A stretch of DNA of 64,000 nt from Amphiura filiformis (taxonomy: Eukaryota > Echinodermata > Ophiuroidea > Amphilepidida > Amphiuridae): contig NC_092631.1 of the NCBI RefSeq assembly GCF_039555335.1, forward strand, positions 17,231,805 to 17,295,804, given 5' to 3'. The translations under genes were made by a program, and so were the position numbers. The notes beneath the pieces are model-generated. The model was not told the origin of the DNA and ran no database searches. It saw only the letters and a list, made by a program, of their open reading frames with translations. Positions 2,311-64,000 of the stretch are shown one piece after another (within the stretch, counting starts at the first letter, position 1; each line of letters starts with the position of its first letter).

Positions 2311-3695
2311 TAAGACGACCTTTTATAACATGTAATGTAACGAACATTATGTTAGGATTTTGAAATTTGTTAGGGTTTGGCTTTTCAAAAGTTTGCCTTC
2401 CTTTATACTTTCATGTTTGTTGGTCGTTTGACTGGAATGGCTGAACATAGAGATGTTTCTCACATTTGACCTACTTGGTCTTTTATAATTTGCACATGAT
2501 TTTATGCTTGTCTCATCTAATTTTTTCCCATGTATGTTAATATTATTATTCTAATTTAAATCAATAACACTCATAATGCACTCAAAAGATGTTGTTTTAA
2601 AAGTGGCTCATCGTTGAACAAATTTTGAACAGAGCTGCTTTGGCTTTGTAGTCTAACGGTATGTGATGGATTTCGTAATGGAAAAAATAGCTGTACTGAA
2701 CGTGCTAAAGAAAGGATTTACAACAGGGAAAACAATCCTGACAAGTTACTTTATCATATTTAGCGGAAAATCACTTTTAGCCAGAATGATATGTTAAACT
2801 ACGTGGGCCTTGTAGTCGTAGATAAACATAAAAGTACATCGAACAAATTGTTGAAGATGACTGTGATTTTTATGGGACACAACTTCGTCGAATATTGGAA
2901 GATGTACATTAGTTTCCTGGATTGGATTATTGAAGGGTGGGGTCAACTATGGTGATTAAACCAAGGTTTGTCAAATAATGAGCTGTAACCTGACACATTA
3001 TTTTATAAATGTTTAAAACATAACAATCTTTTCCCATGTCATGTAAAGGTCCTTTGGTTTTCTTAGTTATCTTGTGAAGGTATATATTATCTATTGGCTA
3101 GAAGAACTGGTAGTCGAATGTTAAAATGTAATGTAATGTAAACGGTCTGGATTTTATAGGTCATCCAGAGGTTACGTGTCTCAATTATCATCTGAATACC
3201 AAAGCTGGTTAGTTAAAAATGACACAATTTAGTCATGTTTAGAATAGATTTCGTCGCTTCCAATAATTGTCACGTGATTCTCCATTGGTCTTATTTACAA
3301 CATTAAAACATCTTTGTGGCAGCAAAAATGTAATAACACTTCTTAATTCAGTGCTAATGGCCACAAAACTCTTCAAAAACTATATCATCAGCCTCAATCC
3401 CCAACGGATGTTTATTATGCAATGCGACAGTTTTCCAATCCATTAACCTAACAGGTTACCATTAAACAGGAATTGTTGCCTCTGGACACAAGACGGTTGG
3501 GTGTATTCAACTCATTCAATCCAGTTCAATGGTCATTAGAGCGAATGGCTTAAACAACCTGGTCAATTTTACATGTTGATGGTTATACAGCCTTACATGT
3601 AATATATAACCAAAACCCTCATGATAATCTTTAGTTTGAACGACTGAACTAATTTGATCTGTCAATGACGAAAATATAAATATGAACCTAACGTG

Positions 3696-3734
<39 letters not shown>

Positions 3735-3782
3735 AGATGCAGAAAAAACCCGAAACAAAACAAAACAAAACAAAACAAAACC
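3696..3782 (+). repeat. (GA)n and (AAAAC)n microsatellites
   Basis: A GA dinucleotide run at about 3,696-3,734 is followed by about six AAAAC units at 3,751-3,782. The homologous site in U1-U3 (for example 22,590-22,630) has only a short GAGAGAG run, so the expansion is specific to this copy. Confidence 0.85.
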
Positions 3783-4565
3783 CTTTACATGAAGACTCTA
3801 CTAAACGATTTTGCGTTGGATACGTAATGAATATGTGTTAAAACACTCCGATGGCTGCACTCATATTTCAATGAATTCAAGGAGTCAACGTAAGGAGAAT
3901 ATTAATTCTGAAGAGTACTTTAGTGGAAAGCTAAGATCGTTTATGTCATGTAAGACGCTGCAGTGAGATTTTGCGAGACCTTTTGCAATCAATTCATGGT
4001 ATTACATTCACTCAGACAATCGACTGTGCTATGAATTTACATTTTAAATAGATACCTGACATTTTAGTATGAATACAAAATCTTATGAAATAACTCAAAA
4101 TCTCTAACTAATATGCTAAACAGATGAATGCATTACATACGTAGCAGGTAACCTATAGTGTGAGGCTGCATTCTAATGCACAACAAACATATCGAGTTAC
4201 TTTGATTCTGTTATGATACGTCAACGGTTTGTAGTACCTTATTAAAGCATAATTTGCTTTCCTTAAACATAAACTTTTCAGATGGTACAACACATTTAAT
4301 TATTATTTGTCGTACCGACAATCAGAACCGATTCTAGTGATATTCGATTTACAACATAATGCAACATAAGAGATCCATCAAGTTTGCGCATTAGTGCTAT
4401 AGAAATCATCAATCTATATTCCATTACAATGCTTCCTTTTATTTATTGTAGGCCTTTATAATATATTGTACATTCTTGGGACATCACATTGTGGAATTTC
4501 GGAAGATGCAGTTCATTGTATTGCATAATTTTAAACTTTATGTGTAATCAAGTTTAGTTTAGAAT

Positions 4566-4706
4566 TGGAATTTAAAGCGGGTTCTGAAGACGTACCTTTT
4601 TCCTAATGTGTAATTTTTATATTGTTGTTTTTATTTAGTTTTTCATATGTATTTTGTTTTGGAGCAAAAGCGCTGTGTTATTTGTAGAGCGCTCTAGAAA
4701 TGTGCT

Positions 4707-4760
<54 letters not shown>
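4566..4760 (+). mobile_element. 5'-truncated LINE 3' tail ending in (TAA)n
   Basis: The stretch starts with a plus-strand frame reading WNLKRVLKTYLFPNV then a stop (4,566-4,613). Known: the pattern F/L-K-x-x-LKTYLF is common at the C-terminus of L2/Daphne-type LINE polymerases. The untranslated tail has an AGCGCT...GAGCGCTCTAGAAATG phrase and ends in about 17 TAA units (4,708-4,760). Unit U1 at about 24,190 continues without this block, so it is an insertion in U0. The clade assignment is tentative because only the last codons survive. Confidence 0.65.
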
Positions 4761-4854
4761 TTGTAGACTTAAAATAACCGCATCTTCTTCGAGATATGCT
4801 TGAATTACACTGTGCAAATTTACAAACTGACTTAGATTTTGAATACATTTCTAT

Positions 4855-6087
4855 CTATCTTGCGGACGCATCCGAGAAAGAGTTTACGATTCTTTTCCAG
4901 GAATCTCTATCAGCCATCAGATTTGGGAGGTCATTAATTTCTTGATTGACGTCCCTTGCCACACAGTCGATGTAGTTGAATGGTCTTCTTCCTCTACATG
5001 TTCGTGGAAGCCTCATACAGATGACATCTGAAATTATTTGGTCTTTTGCACGGTAGCAGTGGCCTGCAAATCTGGCTCGCCGTTGAGCAACGATGGAGGA
5101 CACCTGTGGAACACCATCATAGATCTCTGCTTTGGTTTTATGTTCACGCCAGGATATATTTCGAACCCTCATCAACAGCCGGGTGTAGGTACCATCAAGA
5201 CGGTCCTGAAGATCTTTCTTCATTGTCCAGGTCTCACTTCCATATAAGAGGATACTCTCTATGCAGGCTCTAAAGAAGGCAAGCTTGGTATTTCTTGATA
5301 TGTTGGACTGCCAGATGGTGTGCAGTTTGTTGCAAGCTTTCCATGCTTGAGCTTTGCGAGTCAGAAAGTCTTTCTTGCTGTCGGCAACAAATGAACCAAG
5401 ATATTTAAAGTCCGACACCTCCTTGAGTTGTGTGCCATCCCGAGAAAGGATTGGAGTTGGGTTCTTATCTCCATTAATACACATATATTCTGTCTTCTTG
5501 GAATTGAGAAAGAGGCCAACTTTGGCGGAATCATCTTCTAAAGATGACAGAAGATCTTGGGCATCTTGTGATAACGTAGCTGTTAAAGCGATGTCGTCTG
5601 CGTAGTCAAGATCGGTTAAATACTTGTTCTTCTCTCTGCTCGTCTTATTGGGCATGATGTCAATCCCTTTGGACTTGTCAGTGTCTATCGACTGTCTGAG
5701 GAGATAGTCTACCACTATCACAAAAAGGTAAGGGGCCAAGGTGTCGCCCTGCAGGATTCCAGCAGTAGAGAGAAACTCTTCAGTTGGTCCATCACCTGTT
5801 TGTACAAAACTTGAAGGATTATCATACATTATTGCAATAGCATTCACAATCTCCTGAGGGATCCCATAATTACGAAGAATATGCAGCATGGCCTTCCGGT
5901 TAACACTGTCGAAAGCTTTTGAGAAGTCAACAAACACAATATATGCCTGCTTCTTTGAGATTTTAAGCTCTTCTATTATCCTTCTAAGGGCTAGAATCTG
6001 TGGTGTGGTTGATCTACCCTTGCGAAAACCATTTTGGTTACGTCTGAGAATAGGATCTAGATGAGGAGAAATCCTGTTGAGCAGCAT
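4855..6087 (-). pseudogene. LINE reverse transcriptase, catalytic and C-terminal part
   Basis: The 410-residue frame holds the main body of the polymerase: QNGFRKGRST (18-27), FVDFSKAFD (52-60, first catalytic Asp), ILQGDTLAPY (111-120), YADD (162-165, catalytic Asp pair) and a LYGSETW block near 281-287, followed by the RRARFAGH region usual after the thumb in such LINEs. Coding continues upstream of the listed Met into the shift near 6.2 kb, so the Met is only the first one in frame. All catalytic positions look intact. The stop codon is almost at the element's 3' end. Confidence 0.88.
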
Positions 6088-6130
6088 AGTGTTATACAGC
6101 TTGGCAGCAAGTGCTGACAGTGTGATACCT

Positions 6131-8002
6131 CTATAATTTGATGGTTGTGAAAGATCCCCTTCTTCGGGAGAGGTATACTTGTGGATCTTGACAAGGCTTT
6201 TGGCTTATTTCCTTCATGGTTTCATTACAGAAATCAAGCAGTTGCTGATGGAAGAGTGGGTTTTTCCAAACAATGGCTGGTATGTTGTCAGGACCAGGAG
6301 TTTTTGACTTGTTGAGCTTGCTCAGACCTTTTTGCAGTTCCTCCATAGTAAATGGACCAGTGTGTATTGGGAGATCGTCAGAGACATTGCTGTTAAAGAA
6401 CGTATCTTCAAGGTTTACGTCTTGCTCTGGTTTCCCTAGTAAGTTGGAAAAGTGTAGAAACCAGTTGTCACGACGCTCTTCAGATGTATTGCCTTTCACT
6501 CTAACCACAGGAGCAGATTTGGTGTCAGTTATCTCCCGGAGGAGTTCCCAAGAAGCTGCATGTTTATATTCATGATGGAGGTTGTCAAGTTCCTCTGTCT
6601 TCTTTTGAATAGAGGACTCCAGAGTTTCTGTGTAGGCTTTATCAAGAGTAACTTTGGCCGATTCGAGGAGCTTTTGTGATGCTCGGGTGGATCTAGCATT
6701 GTGTTTCATAGATGCACTCTTTAAGACATCTCTTGCCTCAGTGACTTTGTCTGATGCAGCAATGTTGTAGGACTGCTTTGATTTTTTAGGGAGCATCTCC
6801 AGTGCAACTTCCTCATTAGCCGCAACTAAGGTATCATAAGTGGTGCTAATATTGGGTTCTTGTAGCTCATCGTGTAGAGAACTGAAGCGGTTATAGACTG
6901 CTACCACAAACTGCTCACCCAGGATGGTGTCTCTGGTAACCTTCTTCCAGTCAATACGTTTCATTGGGTCTTTCATGGAAGTTCTGCATTTCCGGTAGCT
7001 GATTTGACATTTGCATGAAACAATCCTATGGTCCGAGTTCACACCCTCGAAGGAGCTGTATGCACGTGAATTCTTGATTGAGTTGATCCACTTCTTTCTT
7101 ACCAGGACAAAGTCTAGTTGAACTAGTTGGCCATTAGGACGCCTATGTGTCCATAATCTGTTGATGCGGTTTTGAAACCTTGTGTTTGTGGCTATGAGGT
7201 TATGTTCCTGCAGGAAGTCTTTCATGTGGTTGCCATTTCTATTGGTTTCTTTAGCAGGTGTGAAGAGAGCATCCAATGGCCCAAGCTGAGCATTAAAGTC
7301 TCCTCCAATTATAAGTAAGTTATGAGCTGGGATGGCATTAACTGTAGAAGAGAGTTCTTGGTAGAAGGAGATAACAGCTTCTTCAGGTTGTTCGTTATGT
7401 GGACTATAGCAGCAGAGAACTGTGGATGTTGGATTGCCCAGCAGAGAAATTTCCATAATCCGTTCATTATGACTAATAATGGACATGCAGGAATTGATGG
7501 CTCTTGGTGAGATTAAGAAGCCTACTCCACCAGTGGCAGCATTCCTTTGGTTCTTCCATGCTGAAGAGGTGACTAATCTGTATCCATTCAGATCTTCCTG
7601 CAAGAGGGAGTCATTGTGACAAATCCGGTGTTCCTGCAGACATATGATGTCAATGCCATAATGTGCGGCTTCATGAGCAAGTTCTTCTTTTTTGGCTAGT
7701 GAGTTGAGAGTTCTGATGTTGAAAGTGCTGATGGTAAATGGTTTTTTCCTTTGTACAAATTTGCCTTGACCATCCTTATCTGCATCAGGTTTGGTCCGTC
7801 CAGGGATGGTATCAACTGGCTTTGAGATCAAACCGTCATTGATGTTAGCATAGTCTAACGGTGACTTAGATGGTCCAGACTTCATAGCAGGGGCTTTAAC
7901 CCTGGTGCTTAAATGTAAACTCATATTTCTTGTCAATGGCTGAATAAGACAGAGGTCGCCACTCCTTCTGTCATAGAGGATATAAAGGAAAGGTTTCAGC
8001 AT
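6131..8002 (-). pseudogene. LINE endonuclease plus start of reverse transcriptase
   Basis: The 623-residue frame carries an exonuclease-endonuclease-phosphatase domain. Visible motifs are STFNIRTL (92-99), LQEHR (122-126), GGDFN (233-237), QLDFVLVR (295-302) and SDHRIV (323-328), which are the Asn, Glu, Asp-Asn, Asp and Asp-His positions expected of an active site. In this family the enzyme nicks target DNA to prime reverse transcription. From residue 563, LNKSKTPGPDNIPA is the opening reverse-transcriptase motif. The frame then ends early at a shift near 6.2 kb, and the polymerase continues in another frame down to 4,855. The natural start may be the Met at residue 27. A 66-codon frame at 7,971-8,171 overlaps the 5' end and may be leader sequence. 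Confidence 0.85.
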
Positions 8003-8384
8003 TTAGTCCAGTTGCCACCCATACTAAATCATATGGGGATACACCTGGTCGCCTGCCGAGGAGATCTGTGTGTATGTACCCCTCAGCGGCATCGGTGAAG
8101 TCTCGATTTTTCCCAGACTCAGGTGTCTCTACCCTACAGAAGTACCTGAAACAGGTATTCTGTCCTACCATGCAAACGAAGCTGAAGACTAAAACTAAAT
8201 ATTAAACCCTAGACAACTGGATGATGAGAAGGAGGAAGAACTAGTATAAGCAGGAAAACACATGGAGCACCCAAAGGATGTTGAAAACATCCAGTGGGAA
8301 ACCCAGCCCCTTAAGATGGTAGTAGGGTGCTGGTAAGGGTAACTTTCAGCTCCGCGGCTATAGCCTCGGCTATAGCCTTCCCTT

Positions 8385-9345
8385 AATACATTTAAACGCC
8401 GACTACTTCTTAGATGGTTACAAACAATGCATAAAAGCTTTTTTTTCGTTTTTATAAGTAAGCTACATGATCCATTATTGCATTATCGTTTTAAGTGCGA
8501 TTTAAGTATATAGCGCTTGTGGATGTTATGAGCATACTGTGTGTTGACTTGTTTTTTAAATTCATATACGCAGTATTAATGGATGGGATCAATCGTTTCA
8601 TGACCAGTTTGAGATATAAGGTTGTAGTAGACAATAATGACACTACACTCAAAGAATAATTTTGTTTTATAATACAATATTGAAAACATATATTAGTGGC
8701 TCTGTAGTCTGAGGTAATAAGGGAAATAATTGTTTGAAAGAACAGCATAATCTTGTTTGATTTAATTGTTTATTCTATGCAGAAATGTGCAGTTATGATA
8801 GTGGCAAATTGTCTGAGTGTGGTTAATGGTATCATATCCATAATGGCGGCCAAGTTAAATCAAAATAATGCGATCAAATTGAAAAGTACCTCACATGTTT
8901 TGTCTACTCATAAGGTAAAGACAAGGACTACCGAGACTGAACCGTGACCAAGGACTAGAAATATATCCTATTTGGGACAAACTGTTGATGTTCAGGGGAG
9001 GGCACTACATCGTAACATCCTGACATGACGTTATCATATTAAGGTCTATCCGATTCTAGACAAGACATCGTCATTATAAAGTCCAACCGGCACTTTCGTA
9101 TTGATCTTTGTCCAGGGTCAGGGATGGACAGTTGATGTTCCCGGAGCGTATAACAGCTTTTTCGAAACACCGTTTCCTCGAACCAAATTCAATTTCCTCT
9201 CCTGCCCATTTAAGGGTAGAGACTATAGACATTTTTACCAAAGGAACATATTCTTGTTTATACCATGATATCGTTGTATCTCAATACTATCACAACTTCA
9301 GCTGTGTAACTTACCTAAAAAGTGGTTCTTTTAATTAAAAATGCA
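8385..9345 (+). repeat. U0/U1 junction segment of the tandem unit
   Basis: After the LINE the unit resumes and matches 24,300-25,000 (U1/U2), 44,150-44,680 and 59,110-59,680. Shared phrases include GGATGGGATCAAT, GTCCAGGGTCAGGGATGGAC and CCCGGAGCGTATAACAGC. The match stops near 9,170. The next unit segment resumes near 14,190, so about 5 kb here is specific to U1. Confidence 0.75.
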
Positions 9346-9355
9346 ATAAATATAG

Positions 9356-9443
9356 TCACTCTGCGCTTTTAGTACTGACCAGACTATAGTAATATTTTTA
9401 AATCACTCTGCGATTTTAGTACTGACCAGACTATAGTAATAAT
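9356..9443 (+). repeat. 47-bp direct repeat, two copies
   Basis: TCACTCTGCG(C/A)TTTTAGT followed by ACTGACCAGACTATAGTAAT occurs at 9,356 and again at 9,403. The copies are almost identical, so the duplication is recent or conserved. Confidence 0.85.
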
Positions 9444-11121
9444 ATTATGCAATATTAGCAGCTATTAATCATGCTTCAGTGGGCAAGTACTTTTAACTTT
9501 AAATGGTATTGAAATTTGTCTTGTCCGGGGGGACTTCCATATAGCTCAGTGGCGTTATTTTCTAGGGTCTATGGTGAATATGACTGATGCGTAGTAGGCC
9601 TACATGTATGTAGGGCTGTAAAAAGCCTGTTCAGTGATTTCATCCGGAGAATGTAGAAATCCATATATCAGCAAAATTTAGATTTTAGCACCTTGTCCAG
9701 TATCTTTGTTAGTTTCGATGTGCAAACCTTAAGCCCTGTATTAAAGACAAAGTAAGTTATTTTACATGAATCTGTAATTTCTCTACTTAGTAGAGAAATC
9801 AGCTATTATTATTATTTAATATCGGTATTTTATTTTACACATATCGTGGCCAAACGGCCAAATTACATGTAAAATTACAATTTGAACATACATATAAATA
9901 TTAAACACTTTAAGAAAACTTTTAAAAGACATCAAAAATTGCATCTATAGGGAAAAAAGTATTAGATCAGAAAAGCACTCGGTCATATTATTGCGCGCAA
10001 AATATTAATTTAACCAAAATACTATTGCACTATGAAAAACATCAAAATATACTCAAATCCAAAAATATCATGCATAGGCGTAGATCCTGGGGATGGGGAT
10101 TTATCCCCCCAATATTTTGGCAGGGGATGGTCCATACAGTCATCCCCCCCCCTCATGTCGATGCCTGATAATGGGTTTCTGATCAAATTAACCTCATATT
10201 TGCCCATTTTAGCCCCAAAAGTGCAAATTTTCACGCGCTTCGCGCGCATTTATTCTACTTTTACACCATATTTCATCAGTTTAGCTTCAAAATACCAAAA
10301 TTTTTCAAGCACTTAGCGCGCAATTGTACCATAATTGCCATATATTGTCGCTCGATTGACTATACTTCAATTTTTTCCAACTCCATTCCCCCCATGTCAA
10401 AAAAGAAATCTACGCCACTGATTAAATATGTCAAACATAATATAACAGTTGTACCAGACTATAAAAAGCAACCATGGCATTGGCATTGGCAATAATGAAG
10501 AACAATCCCAAGAGGAGATTTAAAAGATTAAAAAAATATGGAACGGGGCTATAATTTTATCAATATACTGCTATACTGCTTTCCTCGGTTCTTGCCAAAA
10601 CGTTTTAAAATACTGTATCTAATGACAATTTTAATGATTTATCCTTCACTTTTAGGCATTTTATATAGAATTTAAATTTGTTTTACCATTTTATACTTTC
10701 TCTGGGATCAATGAATAGCCCTTAAATTAAGACCCCCCCTTTCGCTATCACCCATCACATGGTTTGTCATCCACCCCACACACACACACACTTGTTTCCC
10801 ATTGGATCTATCGTCATCATGATTTAGACGCTTTTATTGTTTCATTGACAACTTTTATTATATTTATCACTGATAATGTTGCCAAAAAGTCTTTTGAAAT
10901 TAGTAGGCGTCATTAGTAGATCTCATATAATATAATGAAGTGCTACCCCGATAGCAAAATAATGACAGGCGTATGCTTAGTTTTGACATGTAAGAATACA
11001 AAATGATTTCCTGAGTTATTAATGGGGAGTTATAAGCTCCATTGCAAAGTGAAAGCAGAGCGAGGTGTGTGGATGTGGGGGGGGCAGGTGTTGATGGCCC
11101 GGGGTTTATATTATTAGGGGC
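9444..11121. other. Non-coding, dispersed repeats; possible LINE tail and GCGTAGATC element
   Basis: No gene is visible. Positions 9,800-9,960 read on the minus strand resemble a LINE 3' UTR rich in AATAAA-like words (GGCCGTTTGGCCACGA then TAAAATAAAATA), which is a weak call. At 10,074-10,420 a GGCGTAGATCC start faces a GAAATCTACGCC end, suggesting a degenerate terminal-inverted-repeat element with internal GCGCTTCGCGCGCA phrases. Short CA and G-runs lie at 10,780 and 11,070. Confidence 0.4.
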
Positions 11122-11381
11122 AAGCATCGAAATAAGCAGATCTGGATCAGGAACCACACATTTGGAAAAAGCGGTTCCTGGTCCTGTGATTATCTAGTGA
11201 ACCAGGAGGCATTTTTAAAGAGCTATGAGTCATTTAATTTTTGATTGTACATGTTACATACAAAAACCGATTTAACTAACAGGCTCTATTTATAAAAAAA
11301 AGAGGAGCCTGGTTTTGGTGTGGACCAGGAGCCAAAATGTTATGACCATTGGCTCCTGGGTGCCTGCTTATTTCGAGGCTT
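11122..11381. mobile_element. Small inverted-repeat element (AAGC.TCGAAATAAGCAG)
   Basis: AAGCATCGAAATAAGCAG at 11,122-11,139 is mirrored by CTGCTTATTTCGAGGCTT at 11,364-11,381 (16 of 18 positions pair). The similarity extends inward as a GG.TCAGGAACC / GGCTCCTGG phrase. There is no coding capacity. It is probably a non-autonomous DNA element. No target duplication was established. Confidence 0.6.
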
Positions 11382-11495
11382 GGGGAGGGGTGGGTTAGGC
11401 AATTAACAGCTGCCTGATATCATTCAACATTTCTGATACTGTTACGGCTTGAAATTTAAAGGCAGCGGGACTTTCGGATGCTCTCAGGAACAACT

Positions 11496-12393
11496 CGTCG
11501 CCAGAGTGCTACACTATCGTAAGTGACATTTTTGGCCAAAATGAGATTTTGACGAATTATGGAAGGCCATATAAAAACGCACATTTTAAACCAGGTTTTA
11601 AGTTTCAAAATTGCCTAATTATTTTTTAATTAATAAAATAAAATATCGTAAGTGCAATGCAATTTTAATTAATGCATGCAAGACTATCGTATGTGCCACT
11701 TACGATAGTCTTGCACGCTAATTTTGTTTTTCATTTGCTGCAAGACCATCGTATGTGCCACATACGCTACTTTATTAGGCCTAAACAACAAAATCACGGA
11801 ATGCTACACCATCGTAAGTGCAAAACAGTCTCTGACACATCACTGGCTGTGACGCTGACGGCTGTGTGCGTTGTCATCATGCTGGCTACGTTCATAGCTC
11901 CCATGACTGGTAATAGAGACGATAAATCCGGTGTTTTTAGTTTTAGATTCAATAATAAATCTTGACAGATAACATTACGGCAAAAGGTGTCTTGCTATTG
12001 TAAATATTATATGCCAAAATAAATTAACACTTGTTAAGAAACATAAAATGACAAAATATTGGATATTTGAGCCGATATTACGCATATCCTAATTTAGCAA
12101 TGCATGCTACACTATCGTATGTGGCACATACGATAGTGTTGCACTCTGCACTCATTTCACTTTGAGTGTAACACTATCGTATGTGACACTTACGACATCT
12201 AAATCAGTAAATAATTCATCGATTTATTAACTTTAACACCATTTATATAGTTCATATTATTAAAATCAAATTGCTTTACATTCCCATGTCATTTTATGGC
12301 TACTTGGAAACAAACAGCTACGCTAAACACAAAAATGCTCCTCCTGTAAAACTGTCCAAACTGCACTTACGATAGTGTAGCACTCTGCCGACG
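11496..12393. mobile_element. Foldback element A: CGTCG ends and reiterated CACTATCGTAAGTG
   Basis: The 898-bp element has 30-bp terminal inverted repeats, at 11,496-11,525 and 12,364-12,393, with one mismatch (CGTCGSCAGAGTGC then TACACTATCGTAAGTG). AACT flanks it at 11,492-11,495 and 12,394-12,397, a likely 4-bp target duplication. The core motif recurs inside in both orientations, as head-to-head palindromes near 11,677-11,715 and 12,106-12,147 and as singles near 11,742, 11,802 and 12,166. No transposase is encoded. The open frame over 11,672-11,965 is made of these repeats and is not credited as a gene. Confidence 0.85.
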
Positions 12394-12456
12394 AACTTTT
12401 ACCACCTGATGAACAATCTCAAATGCTCTAATTTGCACCAACATGACAGTATAGAT

Positions 12457-12862
12457 TAGGCCCATGAAAGTCAATTCCGAGTTTATCGTTACTTTTTTTC
12501 AGGTTGGTGAGGTGACTTTTTCCTTTTTCATTTTTCATTATTTCATCAGATTTCATTATTGACCTAAAATGCGTGTTGATTTGAAGCCAAACTCATACAT
12601 GTGATTTATAAACATGTTTTTTTTTATATGGGTAAGGACTAGAAAAATTAGAAAAGAGTCTGGTTTCATGCTTCCAAGTTATGAATATATGTTTTACAAA
12701 CAAAAATATATGTTTCCAATCGCTAAAACCGTGAAAACACTGATACTTTGAAAATAATGAATTATTTTGGCATTTTTGAAAATTTGATGCGGGTATTTTT
12801 TTTCTCCAAAAAGTGACACGGGCGGGGGACGATAAACTCGGAATCGACTATCACGCGCCTTA
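12457..12862. mobile_element. MITE with 31-bp inverted ends (CCGAGTTTATCGT)
   Basis: The left end TAGGCCCATGAAAGTC is followed by AATTCCGAGTTTATCGT. The right end is its reverse complement with about four mismatches (12,830-12,862). The interior is AT-rich and non-coding. TA-rich sequence lies at both edges. It is a non-autonomous element about 60 bp right of foldback element A. Confidence 0.75.
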
Positions 12863-14190
12863 TAGGAAATATATTCTATCAGTTAATGGTTTTATAGTTT
12901 ATTATTTCGGTTTACCAAAAATAAAGAAATAATATCAGCAATAACTGTAAAAAATGGTTTATGTCCATCTGAAGCCAAAATAATAGGATGAATTAAAAAA
13001 TAAAACGCACTATACTAATATACTATATCTTGGAGCTGTGCATAGCGATAAACTAAACCAACAAATATAATAGAAAACAACAAGAAATAATACAGTTATA
13101 TAGAAAACAGTCCCAGTACATAACTCACCGATAAATTACTCTCTTCTTCATTTCACATTCATTTATCTAATGTGAATTACAATGTGACGCTTATTATACG
13201 CAAGACTGAGTCCAGCTGTTACAAATTTGATAACTCAATTCAAAACTTCTGAACACAGTACATTAGGATCAAGGGCGTTGGTTCGAATCAATTGTTTGAA
13301 ATCAATCAATGTGAGAAAGAATTGGGATTCCAATGCGCTCAATGCAGAGTGACTTGTATGCTGTCAGAACTGTCAACGCAAGGTATATAGTGCTGTGGTA
13401 TTTTAAAGTGACTTGGAGGTGTTGTTCTGTAATAGGAATATTTTCGCCATTTTATGGAGGAGAAAAACGCAAAAGACATTGCAAATAACGACGATCAAGG
13501 ATTCTAATATATACATAGCCGAACCGGAATAGGTATGTAAACTACATACGACGTTTGAAGTAAATTCTTAATGTTCTTCATAGCAAGAACATATAAAACA
13601 TTGTCAAAAAATGCAACTTCTTACAAAAACGCTATATTCTCCGATAGTCCATATTTGCATGACTTCGGCGAACACTTTTGGTTCTCGTTTAAATTCTACC
13701 AATAGCACAGTCGATCTAATGTTATCTGCGGTTAGAGGACAGTTTAGAGAATTCTTTTTGCTGGTTGTTTGGTTTAAAATCCCGATATTTTTTTTAAATA
13801 TCGGGATTCAAGCAGGCGATCCGTATGGTATGAAAAAGACGTTGCAAATTGTCAATGAAAGAGCTTATAAATTAAAATCACGGACATTTAGCTCAACAAT
13901 AGGCATCTACATTCCAAGCGGAAACGCTTTTCAGAAACATACCCCACTTTTTTCAGCAATCGCTGAAACCTAAATATGCAATTCCAGGCGATTTGTAAAA
14001 AATAGCGTCAGCATATTTTACTATGAATTTGGGACACCGAAACAAATGCTTGCATTGGTGCCAGACCTATTATAATGATACGATAATTAGGCCCCAATAA
14101 TGGCTTTCATTTTAACCGTTATTTATTAAACTGAGATTTTTACTTTTTGAGAAATTAATGAATTTATCGAAAAACTTTTCGGAGAACGCT
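12863..14190. other. Non-coding, unassigned; one hairpin
   Basis: Nothing recognisable is encoded. A 120-codon frame at 13,611-13,973 has no familiar motif and contains a 13-bp hairpin (AATCCCGATATTT at 13,778, mirrored up to 13,808), so it is unlikely to be a protein. No other unit contains this stretch. Confidence 0.4.
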
Positions 14191-15170: not shown

Positions 15171-15218
15171 AAATACACTCTTGCGAAATTGGGAAATTCT
15201 GGCTACGTACAAAAGTAC

Positions 15219-16478: not shown

Positions 16479-16483
16479 TGAAG

Positions 16484-16513
<30 letters not shown>
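16479..16513 (+). repeat. (AAG)n microsatellite
   Basis: About eleven AAG units. The same position in other units holds shorter AAG-like runs (48,950-48,970 and 62,394-62,410) and a longer imperfect one in U0. Confidence 0.9.
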
Positions 16514-16515
<2 letters not shown>

Positions 16516-52399: not shown

Positions 52400-52474
52400 T
52401 GTGCACAGCCCCTTATGGTAATGTCCTTGTTCTTTTTAAGACTTTCCAACGCAGTAAATTCCGCTTTATACAAG

Positions 52475-53210: not shown

Positions 53211-53940
53211 TTAGTAGATATCTGCAGTTTACCAATCCATTTAAACTAAAAGGATTTCCTGATAAACAAAAAACTATCATGTTCTGTAAAATTTTGTTCT
53301 CTCTGGACGAAATATGTCTGGTGTATTCATCTCATTCAGTGCAGTAAACATGTTGTTATAGCAAATGGCTTGAAGAAACATAGAAAGTGATTATGAAAAA
53401 AGGGGAGACAACAAGAGGCAGGAAAAGTAAAAATAAAGCGTTTATATTAGCAAAGAGAAGACTTAGCTCAGAAATATTTTTACCTCGTATTTCGTAATCG
53501 ATATGTGTTAAAACATTTTGATGGCTGCACTCACATTACTCACATTTCAATACATCTACTGTAAGGAGTCACCAAGGGGAGAACGATAATTGAGTGCTAC
53601 AGCGCAAATTCTCCCCTCTTGCGCATTGCTGCATGGATGCTAGTCTGGCTATATCTGTATTATTATTGCTCCTTGACTGGTTGACTTTGTGTCTAGCTCT
53701 GACTAAACCTGCACAGTCAGCACAATATATAAAGGAGCAATAAATGAAACATAGCCTTATAGCCAAAGTTAGGGTCGATTTCAGAAATCTATGTAACCAT
53801 ACTGACCGCAAGGATGTTTTCATCAATTTTAGATATCAGTGACGGCAAATGATACAGGAATAACCACGTTATGAAACTAAAACCGATAAAAGATACAAAT
53901 TCAAAAGTTTCAACCAACCTATTGGTATGTACGTATCATG

Positions 53941-54669
53941 ACAAGAACAAGAACACATTCAAGATGTTAAGAAAAATAAATCCCGGGACATCGGCCATAT
54001 TCAAGGTTAAAGGTCAACAAAGTGGTAAAAGTTCAATGTTGCTCAAATCTGGTTAACAAGAAACCCAAATTATTTCTCTCATTGCAAGGATTCAGAAAAA
54101 GTATAGTTTGACTTATCTGCGACATACTGTTCTTGAGTTACAAGCATAAAGGCCAAATCTCTTTCAACGAATGGTCTCAAATTGCTCGTCATGCAAAAAC
54201 AAGTCAAAGAAGGAATCATGTGCAGTATCTAAAATGCTTCGTTATTGACTAAATTGGCCAATAAAGGTCAATTCCCATTACATGTACAGCCTATTGACCA
54301 CAACCTATGTTGTGATGTTTCCTAGGTAACGAAATATCTTACATAGTTACAACTATTCCTTATTTTTTTACATGACAAGAAAAAACTGACCACCCCCAAG
54401 ATTTGACCTTTCGAACGTTATATCGCACGTAGGTGAAACTATATTTTTTCTGAATCCTTGCAATGAGAGGAATAATTTGGTGTGCTTGTTAACCAGCTTT
54501 GAGCAACTTTGAAATTTAACCACTGTGTTGACCTTTAACCTTGAATGTGGCCGGAGAGCCGGGGATTATTTTTGCTAACCTTCTGATTGTGTTATAGGAC
54601 CATAAAAGGAAGCTTATAGTTGGTTTGGTAGAGTCATGGGGATGCGCATTAAACCCTGGTATGTACTGG
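53941..54669. mobile_element. Long-inverted-repeat element E, U3 copy with full right arm
   Basis: The right arm retains GGTTTGGTAGAGTC, then AAACCCTGGTATGTACTGG at 54,651-54,669. The left arm starts abruptly at ACACATTCAAGATGTTAAG, having lost about 85 bp of the terminus. It complements the U1/U2 copies, which kept the left end and lost the right. About 170 bp of unmatched sequence follows before the unit resumes at GATGCATAAGTCACC. Confidence 0.75.
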
Positions 54670-55112
54670 ATAATGTATGCCGTGAGTGTTTACTTCCGTT
54701 AGCATGATCAACGTTTACCGTAACTGTAGCGCTAAGCTAGTGAAATATTGTGTTCACAATAATTATTAATTGTTACTTTTGCTTTCAAATGTTATAACTT
54801 TGAAAAGAATATCTTAACCTAATGAGCCTTTTTTGCCGGATAATAGATGCATAAGTCACCAAAGATTTCAGTAAAATCATAATGTATTGATATGAAGAAG
54901 TAATACAATTAATAACCGTTTGAAAGGTGTGTCGTTAATCAAATCGTCCAAGATCCCTACGAATAACACAGATTTTCTGAAGATGCAGTTCGTGGATTGT
55001 ATGGCATAGTTTTGAGGTGCATGGAATCAGGTTTGGCTTGTCCTAGAATTGGAATTGTGCAACCTAAAATAAACATCTTCCACGATATTACCCGGACACT
55101 TTGTAAATGTAT

Positions 55113-55623
55113 CTCTCTCTCTATGTGCCATATCCAGTGACGTGGGCGACCATGGAATGCCAATCCATCCTGTTCTTTGCCAATCTCAACAGCTTGATGT
55201 TATCCACACCCGTCCAGGCTGCGATACTCTGAAGATATGTTGTCCTCTGCCGCCCTCTGTCTCTCCTTCCATTAATCTTCCCCGTAAGAAACAAACACTC
55301 AAGATCATCTTTCCTCATACAGTGGCCCAGGAAATCAAGTTGCAGTTTCCGGATCTTCCTCAGGAGCATCCGTTGACTGCCAGCTCTATGCAATACTGTT
55401 TCATTTGTGGTGTGACTAGTCCAAGGGATCCTCAACATTTGTCTGAGGAACCACATTTCCGTTGCTTGCAATCGATCTTCCATTGCCTTTGAGACTAGCC
55501 AGCTCTCGCAACCATATTTCAGAATTGGTAGTACATAGCAATCTAAGACCCTGAGTCTTGTACTCATGGTGGTATTCAAATTACAAAGGAGGGTGCTCAT
55601 CCTTGTGAAAGTCTCTTTTGCCA
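55113..55623 (-). mobile_element. 5'-truncated LINE fragment with 12-bp target duplication
   Basis: TTGTAAATGTAT is present at 55,101-55,112 and 55,624-55,635. U1 (about 19,695) and U2 (about 29,279) read TTTGCAAATATATACAG once, without the insert. The 511-bp insert encodes, on the minus strand, the C-terminal end of a LINE polymerase and ends in a short GA-type tail (55,112-55,122). Classic target-primed insertion with 5' truncation. Confidence 0.92.
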
Positions 55624-55639
55624 TTGTAAATGTATACAT
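55121..55639 (-). pseudogene. LINE reverse transcriptase C-terminal fragment
   Basis: A 172-codon frame, of which the first five codons are host sequence. It shows LPILKYGCESW (37-47), EMWFLRQMLRIPW (61-73), a LDFLGHCMRK block (about 101-110) and GRRDRGRQRTTYL (124-136). This order follows the thumb in many invertebrate LINE polymerases. No catalytic YADD or endonuclease is included. Sequence differs clearly from the RTE-like element at 4.9-8.4 kb (YGCESW, EMWFLR versus YGSETW, RLLMRV), so it comes from another LINE family. Uninterrupted reading suggests a fairly young insertion. Confidence 0.85.
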
Positions 55640-56821
55640 TCTTCAATTTGACTGGCTTACCATGAATAGATACAATTTAAATTTTAAAATCTTGTTTTCA
55701 TTTCTGTTTAATTATAATCTGATGCATTTATATCGTAATTGAAGTCTTTGCTACCGGGATGTTATAAGTTGTGAGAAATTACTTACAAAACTTGTTATTA
55801 TAGTCAAAATACGTAGTTTTAATAGACGAGGTCGATCGTTCAGAATTTCATGGCTACGAATACAGTTTAACAGATAAATCAATAACACTCACTAATACAC
55901 TCAAAAGATGTCATTTTAAAAGTGGCTCATCGTTGCACAAATATTGAACAGAGATACTTTGGCTTTGTACTTGTCATTCTAATACTTTTATATACTTTAG
56001 ACCAACAATTTAGTAATTATGAGGCCCGAAAGTTTCCATAATTCCAGGGTTAAGACCCCCCCCCCCCCCTTAAGGCTTTAAATAATACAAACTTTAGAAT
56101 TTTACAATGCATATTTGTTCAGCATTATTGCTACGCATTTTGTGATGTCATGTTGTCGATATCGGTTCTTATGTTGCCTTAACACGGTGATTGCCAGGAC
56201 AGTAGCATTTACATATAATCAACACTGACCACAAGAATTGTGATGTCTTTGTAAACAGTGTGTTCTTGCTTGTCAAATATATAAAAACACGTCTGACTGG
56301 AAAGAACAAAAATGTCTTATAAGATGAGTTGATATATAGTAATACTAGCAGATGCGATATTGCATGTGACATGTCTTTAACAATAGTTAAGCAAGCAATG
56401 CGCTGTGGCTCAAACTGGCATTGCCAAACACAAATACACTGGAGAATAAAACCTTCTCGATTGAGCTAATTTGACTGCACCTTAACATTGTATCTTTTCC
56501 TCTGTGGTTTGGTAAGATTTTCAATGACTAGAATATAAATCTGAGCTTCATTTGAGGGGTGAGCGCACGAATAGGGAATTTAGAATCACGTTGAGGTGTG
56601 TCTTTAAATCAGATTCTTTATAAGTGAACAAAGTTAACGTACAATAGCTGTCATGGCTAGGAGCCACTCTTGACACTGCAAATGGTATATAGTTAAGATA
56701 CATTGGGCTATATTTACTTCCATTGTAAACAATGCGACATTATCGTCTTGTTTTGTGTTACATATTTCACGATAAGTCTGTCTATCATCAATAGGATACG
56801 TGGATCGTTCTAGATGTACCT

Positions 56822-57202
56822 CAGAGGATGATTTAAGGAAGCCCCATCATGCACTGTAAAAGTGTTATCACTAGAGTTTCAACTGCCACTTTACTTTTCA
56901 AATCCCATTGAACTCTATGCAAAAGATGTTGTTTTAGAATTGCCCATGTGTCATTATTACTTGGTCAATTTCAGATCAAAAGTGATGTATGCATGAAGGA
57001 TAATTCACACCTTCTGTAGATAAAATAAAATGTGAAATCGACCAACCTTTTGAATTGAAGGTGTTTTTATTGTAAATATATCTGTCCAAATTCGAATTTA
57101 ATCATGCACGTGTGTATGCAGTGGGCGGGCAGTGGTGTCATGTTCACTCACACAGCTGTGCTAACCGCAAGACTTGCTGGGAAGTGCTTAAATCATCCTC
57201 TG
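56822..57202. mobile_element. MITE O with CAGAGGATGATTTAAG ends and 9-bp duplication
   Basis: Perfect 16-bp inverted ends (CAGAGGATGATTTAAG). GATGTACCT flanks both sides (56,813-56,821 and 57,203-57,211). U1 (about 22,497) and U2 (about 41,450) have the uninterrupted site. Length is 381 bp with no coding. CAG-starting ends with an 8-9 bp duplication are compatible with hAT- or Mutator-type mobilisation (inference). Confidence 0.92.
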
Positions 57203-57853
57203 GATGTACCTTCACCCAACGAGACAACATGAATGATATGTGGTGTAAGGTTCCTGACATCGACTGAAAAAATTGAGAGAAGGTGAATATGCAAAAATGA
57301 GAGAGAGCGAAGAAGATGCAGGAAAAAAACTAGAAAAAGAAACCCTTTCACATTATCAAAGATGAAGACTCTACTAAAACATTTTACGTTGGATATCGTA
57401 ATGAATATGTGGTAAAAACACTCTGATGGCTGCACTCATATTTCAATGAATTTTCAAGGAGTCAACGTAAGGAGAATATTAATTCTGAAGAGTACTTTAG
57501 TGGAAAGCTAAGATCGTTTATGTCATGTAGAATGCTGCAGTGAGATTTTGCGAGACCTTTTGTAATCAATTCACGGTATTTCATATTCACTCAGACAATC
57601 GACTGTGCTATGAATTAACATTTTAAATAGATACCTGACATTTTAGTACGCATGCAAAATCTTATGAAATAAATCAAAATCTCTAACTAATATGCTAGAC
57701 AGAGGAATTCATTACATAATTAACAGGTAACCTATAGTGTATGGCTGCATTCTAATGCACAACAAACATATCGAGTTACTTTGATTCTGTTATGATACGT
57801 CAACGGTTTGTATTATCCTTTTTAAAGTATGATTTGCTTTCCTTAACCCAAAC

Positions 57854-58129
57854 CACCTAAGTGCCTTTTGGAGACTGGAAGGGAAAGAAAGAAAGAATAA
57901 AGAGAGAAAACAAAGAGAGAAGTTGTTTAATCTGCGTGGGATTCGAACCCCTTGCATGCCAAGCATGGCGACACTTTGCCCCAGGTGTTGGGCTTCGCTG
58001 GGCTTCGCGAAACCGTGCCTCTATCACTTAGGGCGATTGCGTCATCACACCACGTGAGATGCAGCGTATATATCAAGTAGTATTTTGTAGTACCTCGTCC
58101 TATTAGGATTAAACAGTTAAGATGAAAAT
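57854..58129 (-). mobile_element. tRNA-derived SINE, U3 copy
   Basis: Third copy at the orthologous place in U3, with the B box at about 57,940-57,950 and the 10-bp duplication as in U1. It gives another point of comparison among units. Confidence 0.75.
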
Positions 58130-58594
58130 GGTACAACAAATATTAAATATTATCTGTCTTACCGACAATCAAAACGATTCTAAAAATTATGCAACATAAG
58201 AGATCCATCTAGTTTGCACATAAGGCCAACAAAAAATAATTTTTTGTTTATCCTCCACAGCTTTGAAAGAGGACGTTAATTCTCTTTTCGGATTTGGCGT
58301 ATTCTTGGACCTAGCTAGAGCTAAATGCTACAATCATTCATGGTGAATTAAAAAAACATTTTGTTTATTTAATATGCAGTTAAAGTTATAATTTGTGTTC
58401 AAATTCAATGTATTTTGAAGTCACTAAAGATAATAACACAAAATGTTTTTGCGGGGCTTTTTTTAAAACTTTCAACGATGAAAGGTCTTAGTATTTAGCT
58501 CTAGCTAGGTCCAGAGATATTCCAAAAAAAAAAAAATGAATTTTACTTATTTTTATTTTAAAAAAAAAAAAATATTGGTCAGGCCTTGATCTGA

Positions 58595-59099
58595 AAGTTA
58601 CAAGCATTTGATTAGACGAAGGTCCAGTTTTAAAAGTGACAAACTGGCCTATTCAAAACTCCACAGACTAGACATCTGGTTTGAGATGGGTGAATGGCTA
58701 ATTTATGCGTTTGGCTTTAATTAAGAACAAAAGGACCAAAAGAAAACTGAAAACAAAGAACTGACAAATAAAATGAAAGTTATGAAAAGTACAGAGAAGC
58801 AAAAACTGAAATAAAAACTGCTTTAAATAACGCTTCATTGAAGAAGCTGTGTTGTCTCTTTGTTTCGCTTGATGGAATCTTTTTGCGCCTTGTATAGGCC
58901 AGTCTGTCACTTTTAAAACTGTTCCTTCGTCTATTCAATTGCTGGTAACTTTACTTCTTGAGGTCACATTGGATTCAATGTGGTGTCATAATGTGCAGGA
59001 TTAGATAGTACATCTATTAAAAAACAAATTTACCCCAATATTGTTCAGTTTTGAAATTATGATTATTTTTCCAAGTGTAAGGATTCTTTATTGGCGCAG
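58595..59099. mobile_element. MITE M, U3 copy with left arm deleted
   Basis: It begins abruptly inside the element at AAAGTTACAAGCATTTG, fused to the CCTTGATCTGA part of MITE G. The right end is intact. Compared with U2, about 715 bp (42,917-43,632) is missing here, covering the end of MITE G, unit sequence and the left end of M. Confidence 0.85.
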
Positions 59100-60569
59100 T
59101 ATATGTAAAACACTATGTGTGGGTGTTATAAGCATATAAATTGTCTGTTGTTTTTAATCCAGATGCGCAGTTTTTTAATGGATGGGATCAATGTTTTTGT
59201 GCCCAGTTTCAAGCATAGTAAACATTAATGACACTACACTCAAATAATTTTTCTTTCATAAGCGTTCCATTATTACACAAATATTGAAAGAAATAATTAA
59301 TTACTTCGCAGTGTGAGATAATACGTGAAACAATGATTCCGGTAACAAACTGAAAACAAATCGGTTTCTTGAAGCTATACACATAATGACTCAGAAACCG
59401 AGACTAAAACCGTGACTAAGGACTAGAAATAGATCCTATTTGGGACAACCTGCTGATGCTCAAGGGGGAGGGCACTACATCGTAATATCTTATGACGTCA
59501 TACTGTTAAACATATGACGTCGATATGTAAATGACTATCCGATTCTAGACAAGACATCGTCATTACATAGTCCAACCACACTTTCGAATTTGTCCAGGGT
59601 CAGGGATGGACAGTTGATTTCCCGGAGCGTATAACAGCTTTTTCAAAAAATTAGTCCCATCTCTATTTCCCTCTCCTGTCCCACTCTCACTAGCTACTGA
59701 AGTTAATTATTGCTTGCAGTAAGTTGAGTACGTTGAGTAACGATTAACTTATGAACATTTATATCCAAGTTTGATTTGTATCTGTTTGTATCTTTCAATC
59801 ATTCTTTCTGACTTTGTCGCTTCATTTTTCTTGTTCAATGTTCTTTTTGTCTTTTTGTTTGTTTCTTCAAGTTTTATATCTGAACTCTATGTTGTTGTTG
59901 TTGTTGTTTTTATATCCTTACTTGATTCGTGTTTTTGTTATTATCATTAATTATATTTGATATTCAAAATTCGACGGAATGTTTCTGGAAAATACTGCGC
60001 GAACCACCAATTTATACGCGGCTTCAAAATGATGAAATTGCACAATTTAAATATCTCCTCGATTTCGCTTCAACTCACTCTAACATGATTACCTGGTAAA
60101 AATATACAGTATGAACACATCTTTGTGGCGCAATAAATACAATAGCACTGGTTAATTCAGTGTTAATGACCACATCAACTGTTCAAAGCTATACCCATCC
60201 GGCTCAATCCCCGATGGATATTTAACATGAAATGCGACAGTTTCCAATCCGTTTAAACTAACAGGATGTCTTTCGGCAAACAAAAATTGCCATGTAATTA
60301 TTTTGTTCCCTCTGGACGCAATATGTCCGGGTGTATTCAACTCATTTAGTACTGTAAAATGATTTGTATAGCAAGTAGCTTGAAGAAAACATGTCAATTT
60401 TGCAAGTTGGTGATTATACAGTGTTTAAGGAACAATAATATAAACCTTTAATGTTAAGTTTGCCTTGAACGTTATTAAAAACAAGGCAAGGGTCAGTAAA
60501 CTCTCACATAACAAGCTAAGAAACTCCTGAGTTTGTAAAGAAAAGCACAGACACGGTTGCTTTTGGTAT

Positions 60570-61484
60570 AATGGAAATATGTGCTTATTTAAGCATCAAG
60601 CGTCAAGTTCGCGTAAAAATTGGCAACCAAATTATTTTGGTTAATTCGGGTATGCTGAATTCAATATTTTGTCTACCAAGCTATATTGGAATCCCGAGAC
60701 CCTAAAAATGACCACAGTCCCTTGCATGTTCATATAAAAGGCAACAATCAAAAATGCTCAAAATTTAATTTAAAAAAAAACAAAGAACATGTCAAATTAT
60801 TTGTCTTTGTCTAAGGATCACAAAAATGTAACATATTTGCGTGTAGGACATAATTATAGTTACCAAGTTATGAGGTTCAGCAGGTCCAAGGTCAATACGG
60901 GGCTGAAAAATTAAGGTTGCTCCGATTTTCGTAAAAATGGATGCAAACTTTCTCAAGGTCAAGGGATTCGGGAAAAGAATAGTTTTACTATCTGCGATGT
61001 CAAGTTCAGAAGATAGATGAAAAATAAATACAAATTCCACTGAATCATATGGAATCCTACATATTTGTGACTCTTTGCTGTATAACATGCTAGATATCGC
61101 AGATAGTGCAAACTATTCTTTTTCTGAAACCTCTTATCTAAGCGAACAATTTGCGACAGTTTCTACGAAAATTGAGCAACTTTGTCTTTTGACCCATACA
61201 CAATAAGCAAACCGACCTATGATCTTCTGTGCCCCATAACGTCTTAACGATTCTTTTTTTCTGGGATTAATGGGGCCAGACGCGTTAAGTGTTATTGGAA
61301 TCAAATTGATTTTGCCCGTATGTGATCCTATGGGGTAATTTGGGGAATTTTGTGGGTCACCGTCTCAACATATTACTTAGCAGGCAGCAGATTCGAGTTC
61401 AGCATACCCAAATCAACAAAAATAACCTGGTTCCCAACTTTTTGCCAACTTGCCGCTAGGAACGCGAGTTTCCAAAATAGAACC
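60570..61484. mobile_element. Long-inverted-repeat element H, complete copy in U4
   Basis: The left part (AATGGAAATATG, then CAAGTTCGCGTAAAAATTGG, then GGGTATGCTGAATTC) is matched in inverse orientation by 61,390-61,475 (GAGTTCAGCATACCCAAATC, then AACTTGCCGCTAGG). A second inner inverted pair surrounds ACTATCTGCGAT (60,987 and about 61,095). The empty site is U1 15,041-15,060. No coding. Partial copies lie in U2 and U3. Confidence 0.72.
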
Positions 61485-61589
61485 TATTGTAATTCGCGTA
61501 CTAATAGTTTAAAATCAGTGCTATATTTGTTGGCGTCGAATATCATTGCTTTTAGTGGTGCCTTGATTTAATCAAGTTAGACGCTCCCA

Positions 61590-62095
61590 ATAAATGATAT
61601 TCTTTTATTATTATCTTTATTTATTTTTAGAAATGAGGTTACCGTTGTTGGAATTACAACCCAGGGTAAATATTTCTGTGGCTAACGAAGCAATCTGAAT
61701 GATTAACAAACACAATCATGTGTTCCATTATTACAACAATACTATATCATGGGGAAACAGTCACAATAATACACTAATACATGATGCACGCGCTAACAAC
61801 GCAGTTACTATGAAATATAATGAAAGACAGAGATAAAAAGACTTTATCGCGTTTGACGTCATCAAACTCGCGCAGGGTTTGTTTACAAGTGTCGAGATGA
61901 TAACTTGCTGAACGCGGCGGTATAACCGGACACCTTCAACCATACAAACCCTCTAAAAAGTTAGGTCTTTATAGTAGGAAACTTTCTTTCCCGAAGGCTT
62001 CTGATTTCTGCAAAATAAATGGTATTGATTATTAAAATGCACAGGGAAAGGAAATAATTTAAAAAAATATTTGTATTACGGTAATACAGATTAAT
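61590..62095. other. Non-coding stretch between element H and the AAG segment
   Basis: No gene is seen. A short CG-containing patch at 61,850-61,930 contains TTTGACGTCATCAAAC, a 14-bp palindromic core with a CRE-like TGACGTCA word. Regulatory meaning is unproven. Confidence 0.4.
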
Positions 62096-62744
62096 CCGCA
62101 TTTTATGAAGCAAATCTATCAATCCACCACCACAGTCACATCTGCATCATATGTCTTGCCTTTAAGTCATTTCTGCGGTCAATACCACTCTTGAGAGATT
62201 CTAACACATGAAAATGTTCCAGGATCGATGTTTATGTCACTGCCCTTGGCAAATTGAATACTTTTGGGAAAAGAGACGATCAATTGACATTATTAACTGC
62301 TGAGAACTTCAACTTGTACATTTTGGTTAATATAAAAACGTAAGTTGTGAATATGGCAAAATGTGAACATGATGACAATGGTAATATAATGAAAAAGAAG
62401 AAGAAGAAGTAGAATAAGACGTGAGATAAAGAAACAAGATCAGAAAATGAACAAAGTAATAGTGTAACTGGTGTGAATGGTATAGTTAAGTTTGCTTGAT
62501 TGCTAGGTTGAGTGGTCGCGTTTGATTACATTGTCCAGAATGTGCACTCTGTGTCCAATACATAAATCTATTGGTCGAGCCATGAGTTTGATTTTTTAAA
62601 TTATGGAAGCATAACATGTATAGGCAGATAAACCAGAGAAAAAAAACTCCCGATATACCTGCCTGTAATTTCATGTTAAATTGGGCCAGTGTGCGATGCG
62701 TGGTTCTTCTTTCCCCTGTATAGTGATATGTTAAGATTAAGGGG

Positions 62745-63650
62745 TCGAGCTGTATTGTCTCAAATATCTCCGAAATGGGAGAAAACTGCCATGTTTGCTG
62801 TGAAATTTTGCCTAGCAATATCTATCTCAGGTGCAAAATTTATGGTGCACATTTAAGATTGATGTCTTTAGATTAATATTTTAGCAATCTTAATATTATT
62901 AGTTGATAGGAAATTCTTCAAATATGCCTGTACATATAACGATGCATAACAGCCCACGCAGTTTTTTTATAGGTGAACTCTTTTCGAGCAGTCCGTGTTG
63001 GACGATGACCCTATCTTTTTGCTGAGGTATTTACAGGACCTTGAAATAAGAATTATGATAGATATTTGCGACTTCGGAATGCAACGAAGGCATGTTCGAA
63101 GCTCGTCAATACACAAAATACTACCTGATTTTACACTCTCGTCGACCACTGTCTGGCGCATGTTATTTTGTTACTTTAAATTCAACAAAATTCCAATTTT
63201 TTAGGCAAAAAGACTTCTAGAGATACCATCCTGCATGTCCATGTTCGATTTATGGTAATACAATTAACCAATTTTTAAATATCAATTTGTTTAGATTCAC
63301 GGAAGCCATATTTTATGCATTTTCGACAGTAACGAGTTAACGCCAATTTTGGTACAAATTTGTCAGTTTTGCCAAAGTTATTTATCCGGTAAACTAACGA
63401 ATGCCAAGGTTCATAGGCGAGCTAATAGCGCTATGTTATTTAATTACTTTTACTTACGATTTTTATCAAGGTTGGTACGCGTGTCTGTCATCGACTTGAC
63501 AACAGGCATACCCGGTACAAACATTTTGTAAATCGTGGAAAGTCGTATTTATGCAAAATGATCAAAAAATGATACTTTTAGGTGTTATTCTGTTAGTTTC
63601 TGTTTGGCAAATCATAAATGCGTACGTGTTTTGGTCAAAATGGCACGAAC
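62745..63650. other. U4-specific insertion of about 0.9 kb, unclassified
   Basis: The match to U1 stops after GATTAAG (62,740) and resumes at about 63,665 with TGTTCGTCATACATACGATC. The interior has no recognised protein, no obvious inverted ends and several short frames (62,995-63,204, 63,349-63,531). It may be a 5'-truncated or decayed element. Confidence 0.45.
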
Positions 63651-64000
63651 ATAATTCAGCAAGTTTATTGTTCGTCATACATACGATCAATGATGGACAT
63701 GTTATGATATTCCCCGAAGCGCATTGCAGCATTCACTGAAATTTAACCTCACTTGATTCTTGGATATGGTGATGATGGACATCTTATTTTCCCGGAACGC
63801 ATTAAACTTGTCCCCTTAAGGAAAATAAATTGTCCTACCTTACTTACCACTTTTACCATTCTGATATTATATCTATAGTAGTATTGTATTATTGCTTTTA
63901 GTAAAAGAACCCAGGAACGCTTTTATTCTCTTTTACTTTTTTGTTTTGAACTAGTTTTGTGTATACTGTTTGCATCTTTCAATCACTCTGTCTGACCTTG

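Follow-up and report, generated by a model that had tools for sequence, protein, structure and literature searches.

The window analysed here is a stretch of 64,000 bases, without N and with a G+C content of 32-43% in 2-kb steps, in which a composite unit recurs in direct orientation. The unit consists of three segments, B (5.7 kb), J (1.7 kb), and A (3.0 kb), and measures ~10.5 kb if complete; its copies, referred to as U0 to U3, begin at 2557, 20512, 39438, and 55775, the fourth being cut by the window end. When the window was compared with itself by BLASTN (E<=1e-10), 253 HSP rows were obtained, with both directions and the self match counted, and an off-diagonal match appeared in 0 of 20 order-1 Markov sequences of window length. 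With 19781-29650 as the query, the main matches were collinear, on the plus strand, and located in U0, U2, and U3, and individual self-matches extend over 3044 columns at 97.7%, 3078 at 94.8%, and 1830 at 96.3%. The self-comparison bears out the original prediction of collinear direct copies in a fixed order and orientation. The predicted array start (2562) also agrees with the first match of B0 at 2557, and the predicted unit of about 10 kb holds, although successive B starts are spaced 18.1, 18.9, and 16.3 kb apart; this spacing is wider than the unit because of insertions.

All unit segments lie on the plus strand. B0, the outer older B copy (2557-15046), has a LINE (4851-8384) and an unmatched stretch (9208-14208) as interruptions; its pieces aligned to U1 are 2557-2712, 3226-3651, 3716-4266, 4296-4336, and 4460-4548 in the left part and 8383-8672, 8930-9207, and 14209-15046 in the right part. 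The J segment of U0 (15044-16746), pieces of which match 48160-49189 in U2 and 61485-62550 in U3, is followed by A0 (16747-19780), which is 97.7% identical to 26330-29364 over 3044 columns. In U1, B1 (20512-26250), collinear with B2 and B3, is joined to A1 (26330-29364) without a J segment. U2 comprises B2 (39438-47330), with inserts at 43480-44117 (part of it common to U3), 45480-46323, and 46543-47099, a J segment together with the arms of an inverted-repeat element (47331-49581), and the insertion-bearing A2 (49582-55712). B3 (55775-60910), collinear with B1 and B2, is followed by the J segment of U3 (60911-62560), where 61996-62551 resembles 48508-49140 and 62186-62740 resembles 16241-16902, and by A3 (62561-64000), the outer older A copy, which is cut by the window end and matches A at 62561-62740 and 63662-64000.

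Four copies are seen in the window, with the right end open, a copy number that, like the contiguity of the array, is read from one assembled sequence. Four to five had been predicted; in place of a fifth, there is a J-like remnant alone at 1712-1930, left of the first B copy and 74% identical to 48652-48870, which indicates that an older array may reach left of the predicted start. The further expectation that the copies fill most of the window did not hold, as bases matching another unit amount to just 31,118 of 64,000 (49%), with matched shares of 39% in U0, 92% in U1, 59% in U2, and 72% in U3. U1 and U2 are parted by a largely unrelated 10-kb block outside the unit (29365-39437), with several short repeats and inverted repeats inside, whose matches to the units are short, weak, or mobile-element-like (e.g., 34875-35090 with 23607-23838 at 64%). 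Within this block, 29370-29638 and 29759-30050 form a direct duplicate at 83%.

Mobile elements and coding content

The LINE-type retrotransposon within B0 (4851-8384, minus strand) has an endonuclease ORF at 6131-8002 and a reverse-transcriptase ORF at 4855-6204, in two frames, and the Pfam matches are Exo_endo_phos (1.4e-9) and RVT_1 (1e-32). It is flanked by nine bases, AATACATTT, read by eye at 4842-4850 and again at 8385-8393, and B homology picks up again at 8383. No second copy of this LINE is present elsewhere in the window, and its reverse-transcriptase patterns hit six stretches in viral_contigs and seven in genome_contigs, 0 of which were confirmed as relatives. A broken reverse-transcriptase element occupies 50931-53218 within A2 (minus strand), where A homology ends at 50930 and returns at 53219. 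This span holds four ORFs, with neighbours overlapping at two places; the ORF at 51616-52233 matches RVT_1 at 6.9e-7 with 29.6 bits, equal to the cut-off of 29.6, and gave weak matches only against PDB, the top one being a reverse transcriptase at E 0.04. By motif, we take its C-terminal stretch to be GIY-YIG nuclease-like, and hence the element to be possibly Penelope-like. Another insert in A2 (55113-55623, minus strand), evident as a gap in the A1-A2 alignment, carries most of the ORF at 55121-55642, which has no Pfam match and looks like the end of a reverse transcriptase.

A terminal-inverted-repeat element, with ends counted by eye and containing the inverted repeats I11 and I17, lies at the A0/B1 junction (19813-20496); its left end reads CCCAGCAAACACAAAAACG, with the inverted counterpart at the right end. 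The A-B junction between U2 and U3, at about 55713-55775, is without this element. Inverted arms of ~350 bp, 88% identical and 2.4 kb apart, are found at 46528-46883 and 49312-49663, and related sequence also occurs at 36229-36493 and, over a short length, at 26250-26331, the B1/A1 join, which resembles an inverted-repeat element end. The arms are a foldback-type element family present also at that join. In addition, a 427-bp near-palindrome at 38744-39170, about 82-84% self-complementary, adjoins three direct copies of a ~220-255 bp unit at 37950-38636, and together these are possibly an inverted-repeat mobile element.

The window contains 11 ORFs of at least 120 aa; this sparseness of ORFs, together with the LINE-type ORFs, points to DNA of probable eukaryotic origin. 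Pfam was run on 20 ORFs: of the 28 stop-to-stop ORFs that reach 100 aa, 14 were included, together with six shorter ones (the window has 1197 stop-to-stop pieces of 30 aa or more), and no host-gene domain was found among these 20. The coding sequences recognised are, to judge from these matches, those of mobile elements, in a scan of 20 ORFs that could miss short exons. The original prediction that no copy contains a recognisable gene was too broad, since transposon ORFs are present, with RVT_1 and Exo_endo_phos in U0 and RVT_1 at the cut-off in U2. ARAGORN detected no tRNA in the window, and Rfam gave 0 matches at the gathering threshold in the window and 0 at E<=1 in 20500-29700, so that nothing found ties the array to rDNA, a reading that had also been raised.

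Of the U1 ORFs of at least 35 codons, 17 are free of stops in two or more of the other aligned copies. Our own count for these, over 30 gap-free comparisons with changes in which overlapping ORFs were entered more than once, is 33 silent versus 76 amino-acid-changing codons, which gives no sign of selection and no convincing coding signal. Silent changes exceed changing ones in five of the 30 comparisons, three of the five within the tract 25441-25733 (X3); the ORFs concerned are 22581-22706 (plus strand, 2 versus 0 in one copy), 25501-25635 (minus strand, 1 versus 0 and 3 versus 0), 25577-25714 (plus strand, 4 versus 1 in one copy), and 27803-27913 (plus strand, 1 versus 0). A minus-strand frame of X3 is open for 72 codons in U0 (14627-14842) and likewise open in U3; its mismatches to the other three copies by codon positions 1, 2, and 3 are 2, 0, 2; 1, 0, 5; and 1, 1, 3, thus leaning to third positions. 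Pfam gave no match for it up to E 1, and PDB a single one, at E 0.8. The frame was rejected as a gene that all copies maintain, since it has an in-frame stop in U1 and U2 and the paralogs have out-of-frame gaps and no clear third-position excess. X3 could conceivably be of decayed coding origin.

Relationships among the copies

Pairwise identity was computed in 18 blocks across the copies. B1, B2, and B3 are mutually 88.7-100% identical, whereas B0 reaches 86.7-94.1% against B1-B3 block by block, the X3 tract excepted. In the two leftmost blocks that include B3, its identity is 88.7-92.1%, the lowest values of this group of three being those of B3 in 20521-20719, and B1 and B2 are up to 100% identical over 263 columns. 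Among the A copies, A0 and A1 are 89.6-99.7% identical and either of them is 89.0-96.8% identical to A2, whereas A3 is 84.6-88.1% identical to A0-A2; the U3 copy of J, at 91.9-92.3% identity to the others, is less of an outsider than A3 itself. As B1-B3 and A0-A2 are closer to one another while B0 and A3 are diverged, the younger copies are A0-B1, A1-B2, and A2-B3. The A-to-B join within 19740-20560 can be aligned with that within 55690-55800, the first carrying the inserted terminal-inverted-repeat element, and this indicates that the join is ancestral to those copies. The younger amplification is in the register A-then-B, with identities mostly of 92-100%, and is flanked by the older B0 and A3. 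The description 'recently amplified' given in the original prediction applies to the A-B copies on the inside, by comparison with the outer copies, and not to the rest of the array.

Older paralogy is found inside the units. In U1, the left part of B, the right part of B, and A have diverged blocks in common: X1 (20827-21256) resembles X3 (25411-25858) at 66%, Y (22559-22768) resembles 27723-27920 at 70%, and further pairs are 24927-25196 with 26718-27001 (65%), 25583-25727 with 27574-27730 (72%), and 24098-24244 with 29104-29273 (65%). The same kind of diverged internal pairs in U2 reaches 78%. The older internal duplicates expected in each unit are thereby borne out, as paralogous pairs of 64-78% within a unit.

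The three-way comparison of B1, B2, and B3 (3,995 columns) contains 207 two-against-one sites (96 with B1=B2, 63 with B1=B3, and 48 with B2=B3), for which the maximum chi-square is 58.0 at 22244, a value reached by 0 of 2000 label shuffles; the B1=B2 class is dominant on the left side of this position only. In A, the block 26330-26616 has 12 sites with A1=A2 versus 9 with A0=A1 and 4 with A0=A2, and the other three blocks favour A0=A1, with 20, 31, and 15 sites. At 26347-26484, A1 is 95.7% identical to A2 and 89.6% to A0; at 26023-26250, B1 is 98.7% identical to B3 and 92.5% to B2. Part of an insert (43629-44118, matching 58594-59100) is common to B2 and B3 and missing in B1, so that B2 and B3 group together there. 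The blocks disagree on a single duplication order, as seen from the A1/A2 affinity at 26347-26484 and from the shared B2/B3 insert, which stands against the closest pairing of B1 with B3 at 26023-26250, and we read these conflicting orders as mosaicism of the kind that gene conversion or unequal exchange would leave.

The X3 tract, with edges near 25440 and 25733, departs from the general pattern. Within it, B0 is 97.3-98.6% identical to the other copies, versus 87.1-87.7% in the 400 bases upstream, while B1-B3 are 97.3-98.3% identical within it and 96.5-96.8% upstream (divergence 1.7-2.7% versus 3.2-3.5%). Because the likeness of the three younger copies inside it is not far above that upstream, X3 is best read as a putative conversion tract, with constraint as the alternative.

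Origin of the array and comparison with known systems

Taken together, these observations point, with a probability of roughly 80%, to a tandem segmental duplication cluster that grew in at least two rounds and is decaying by transposon insertion, rather than to a homogeneous satellite. An older local duplication would have produced the related segments within one unit that are now 64-78% alike, and the older round would also have generated the initial B-J-A units in head-to-tail order. The inner part may then have been amplified by unequal exchange among those units, in the register A-then-B, into three younger copies (A0-B1, A1-B2, and A2-B3), with the older B0 and A3 left at the ends. The mosaic state of the copies would be due to gene conversion or additional unequal exchange at a later time, and transposons would have inserted into the copies. 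What is observed are the collinear copies, the pattern of identities, the mosaicism, and the inserts, from which the sequence of events and the mechanism of exchange are inferred. No function is needed to explain the array.

Part of the array might instead be an assembly artefact, in which two haplotypes of a very polymorphic organism were placed in series and A0-B1 and A1-B2 are allelic. The identity of A0 and A1 (97.7%) and the B1/B2 stretch of up to 100% over 263 columns would suit alleles, and A0-B1 aligns in order with A1-B2 except where inserts separate A from B. This explanation is nevertheless unlikely: the third copy, A2-B3, is nearly as close, B1 is nearer to B3 (98.7%) than to B2 (92.5%) in 26023-26250, and the mosaic together with the diverged B0 and A3 requires more than one copy per haplotype anyway. 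Still less credible, and the least probable of the readings weighed here, is a tandemly repeated endogenous virus or large transposable element; reverse-transcriptase ORFs do lie within the span, but a single unit copy is broken in each case by the LINE, by the reverse-transcriptase element of U2, and by the element at the A0/B1 junction, no Pfam match was obtained outside those elements among the ORFs scanned (20 in all), and two array motifs had 0 exact matches in viral_contigs.

We also considered whether the unit carries a retained, undescribed non-coding RNA gene with exons X and Y on the plus strand, in which exon X (25441-25733 and its copies) would be kept while introns and flanks decay, with A carrying a processed, spliced-like X-Y copy. 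X has TTTACAG or ATACAG before it and GTCAATTTT after it, X and Y are adjacent in A and ~1.3 kb apart in B, X3 is 97.3-98.6% identical in all four copies with B0 at only about 87% just upstream, and the single-sequence fold of X3 has a z of -2.45, with 1 of 200 shuffles folding as well. However, paralogy continues beyond the supposed donor site and the X-Y join falls in a short GAA-rich similarity, so that deletion at a microhomology fits too. The acceptor AG is lost in the B1-type X of U0, Rfam gave 0 matches, and the B1-B3 divergence inside X3 (1.7-2.7% versus 3.2-3.5% upstream) fits conversion better. Covariation over six sequences is unfavourable (term of +2.32) and 2 of 55 pairs are compensatory, so that a structured RNA in X3 is not supported despite the fold score. 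Such a gene is accordingly rated very improbable, and the segmental duplication cluster remains the preferred reading.

Segmental duplications are blocks longer than 1 kb that are about 90% or more alike and present in few copies, and the self-matches of 3044 columns at 97.7%, 3078 at 94.8%, and 1830 at 96.3% are of this size and identity. Block identities, the site test, and internal paralogy likewise present a mosaic of ancestral and younger duplicons. The array shares with macrosatellites the direct tandem units of at least 1 kb, but it is not an uninterrupted, homogeneous array, given the 10-kb block at 29365-39437, the matched share of 49%, and the diverged outer copies. Satellite higher-order repeats have two levels of repetition, with older divergence within the unit and younger likeness between units; both levels are present here, but the inner paralogs lie dispersed at 64-78% identity, with unrelated sequence between them, and do not form a monomer array. 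The sequence matches the original prediction of a higher-order tandem array whose unit has no detected host gene and includes nested older duplicates, whereas the label 'satellite-like' does not suit four copies with outer ones about 85-94% alike, a 10-kb interruption, and copy-specific insertions.

The value of the array is as a clear worked example, in which a younger register A-B that differs from the older B-A can be read from one window; it documents how duplication, conversion, and transposon insertion have acted at one locus, and we see no newly opened question in it. The 9p21.3 region is described as consisting of head-to-tail duplicons that form a mosaic of ancestral and younger duplicons, with mobile elements at junctions (PMC5880603); the present array resembles it in its head-to-tail arrangement, mosaic blocks, and junction mobile elements, and differs in unit length (~10 kb here, ~50 kb there) and in being more divergent and heavily interrupted. 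The macrosatellites D4Z4, DXZ4, and NBL2 have units of 1.4-3.3 kb, with 12-100 copies for DXZ4 (PMC8122249); they share long direct tandem units with the present array, which differs in its four copies, 10.5-kb unit, 10-kb interruption, and outer copies of about 85-94%. The kind of duplication is an already known and ordinary one, of which this locus is another example.
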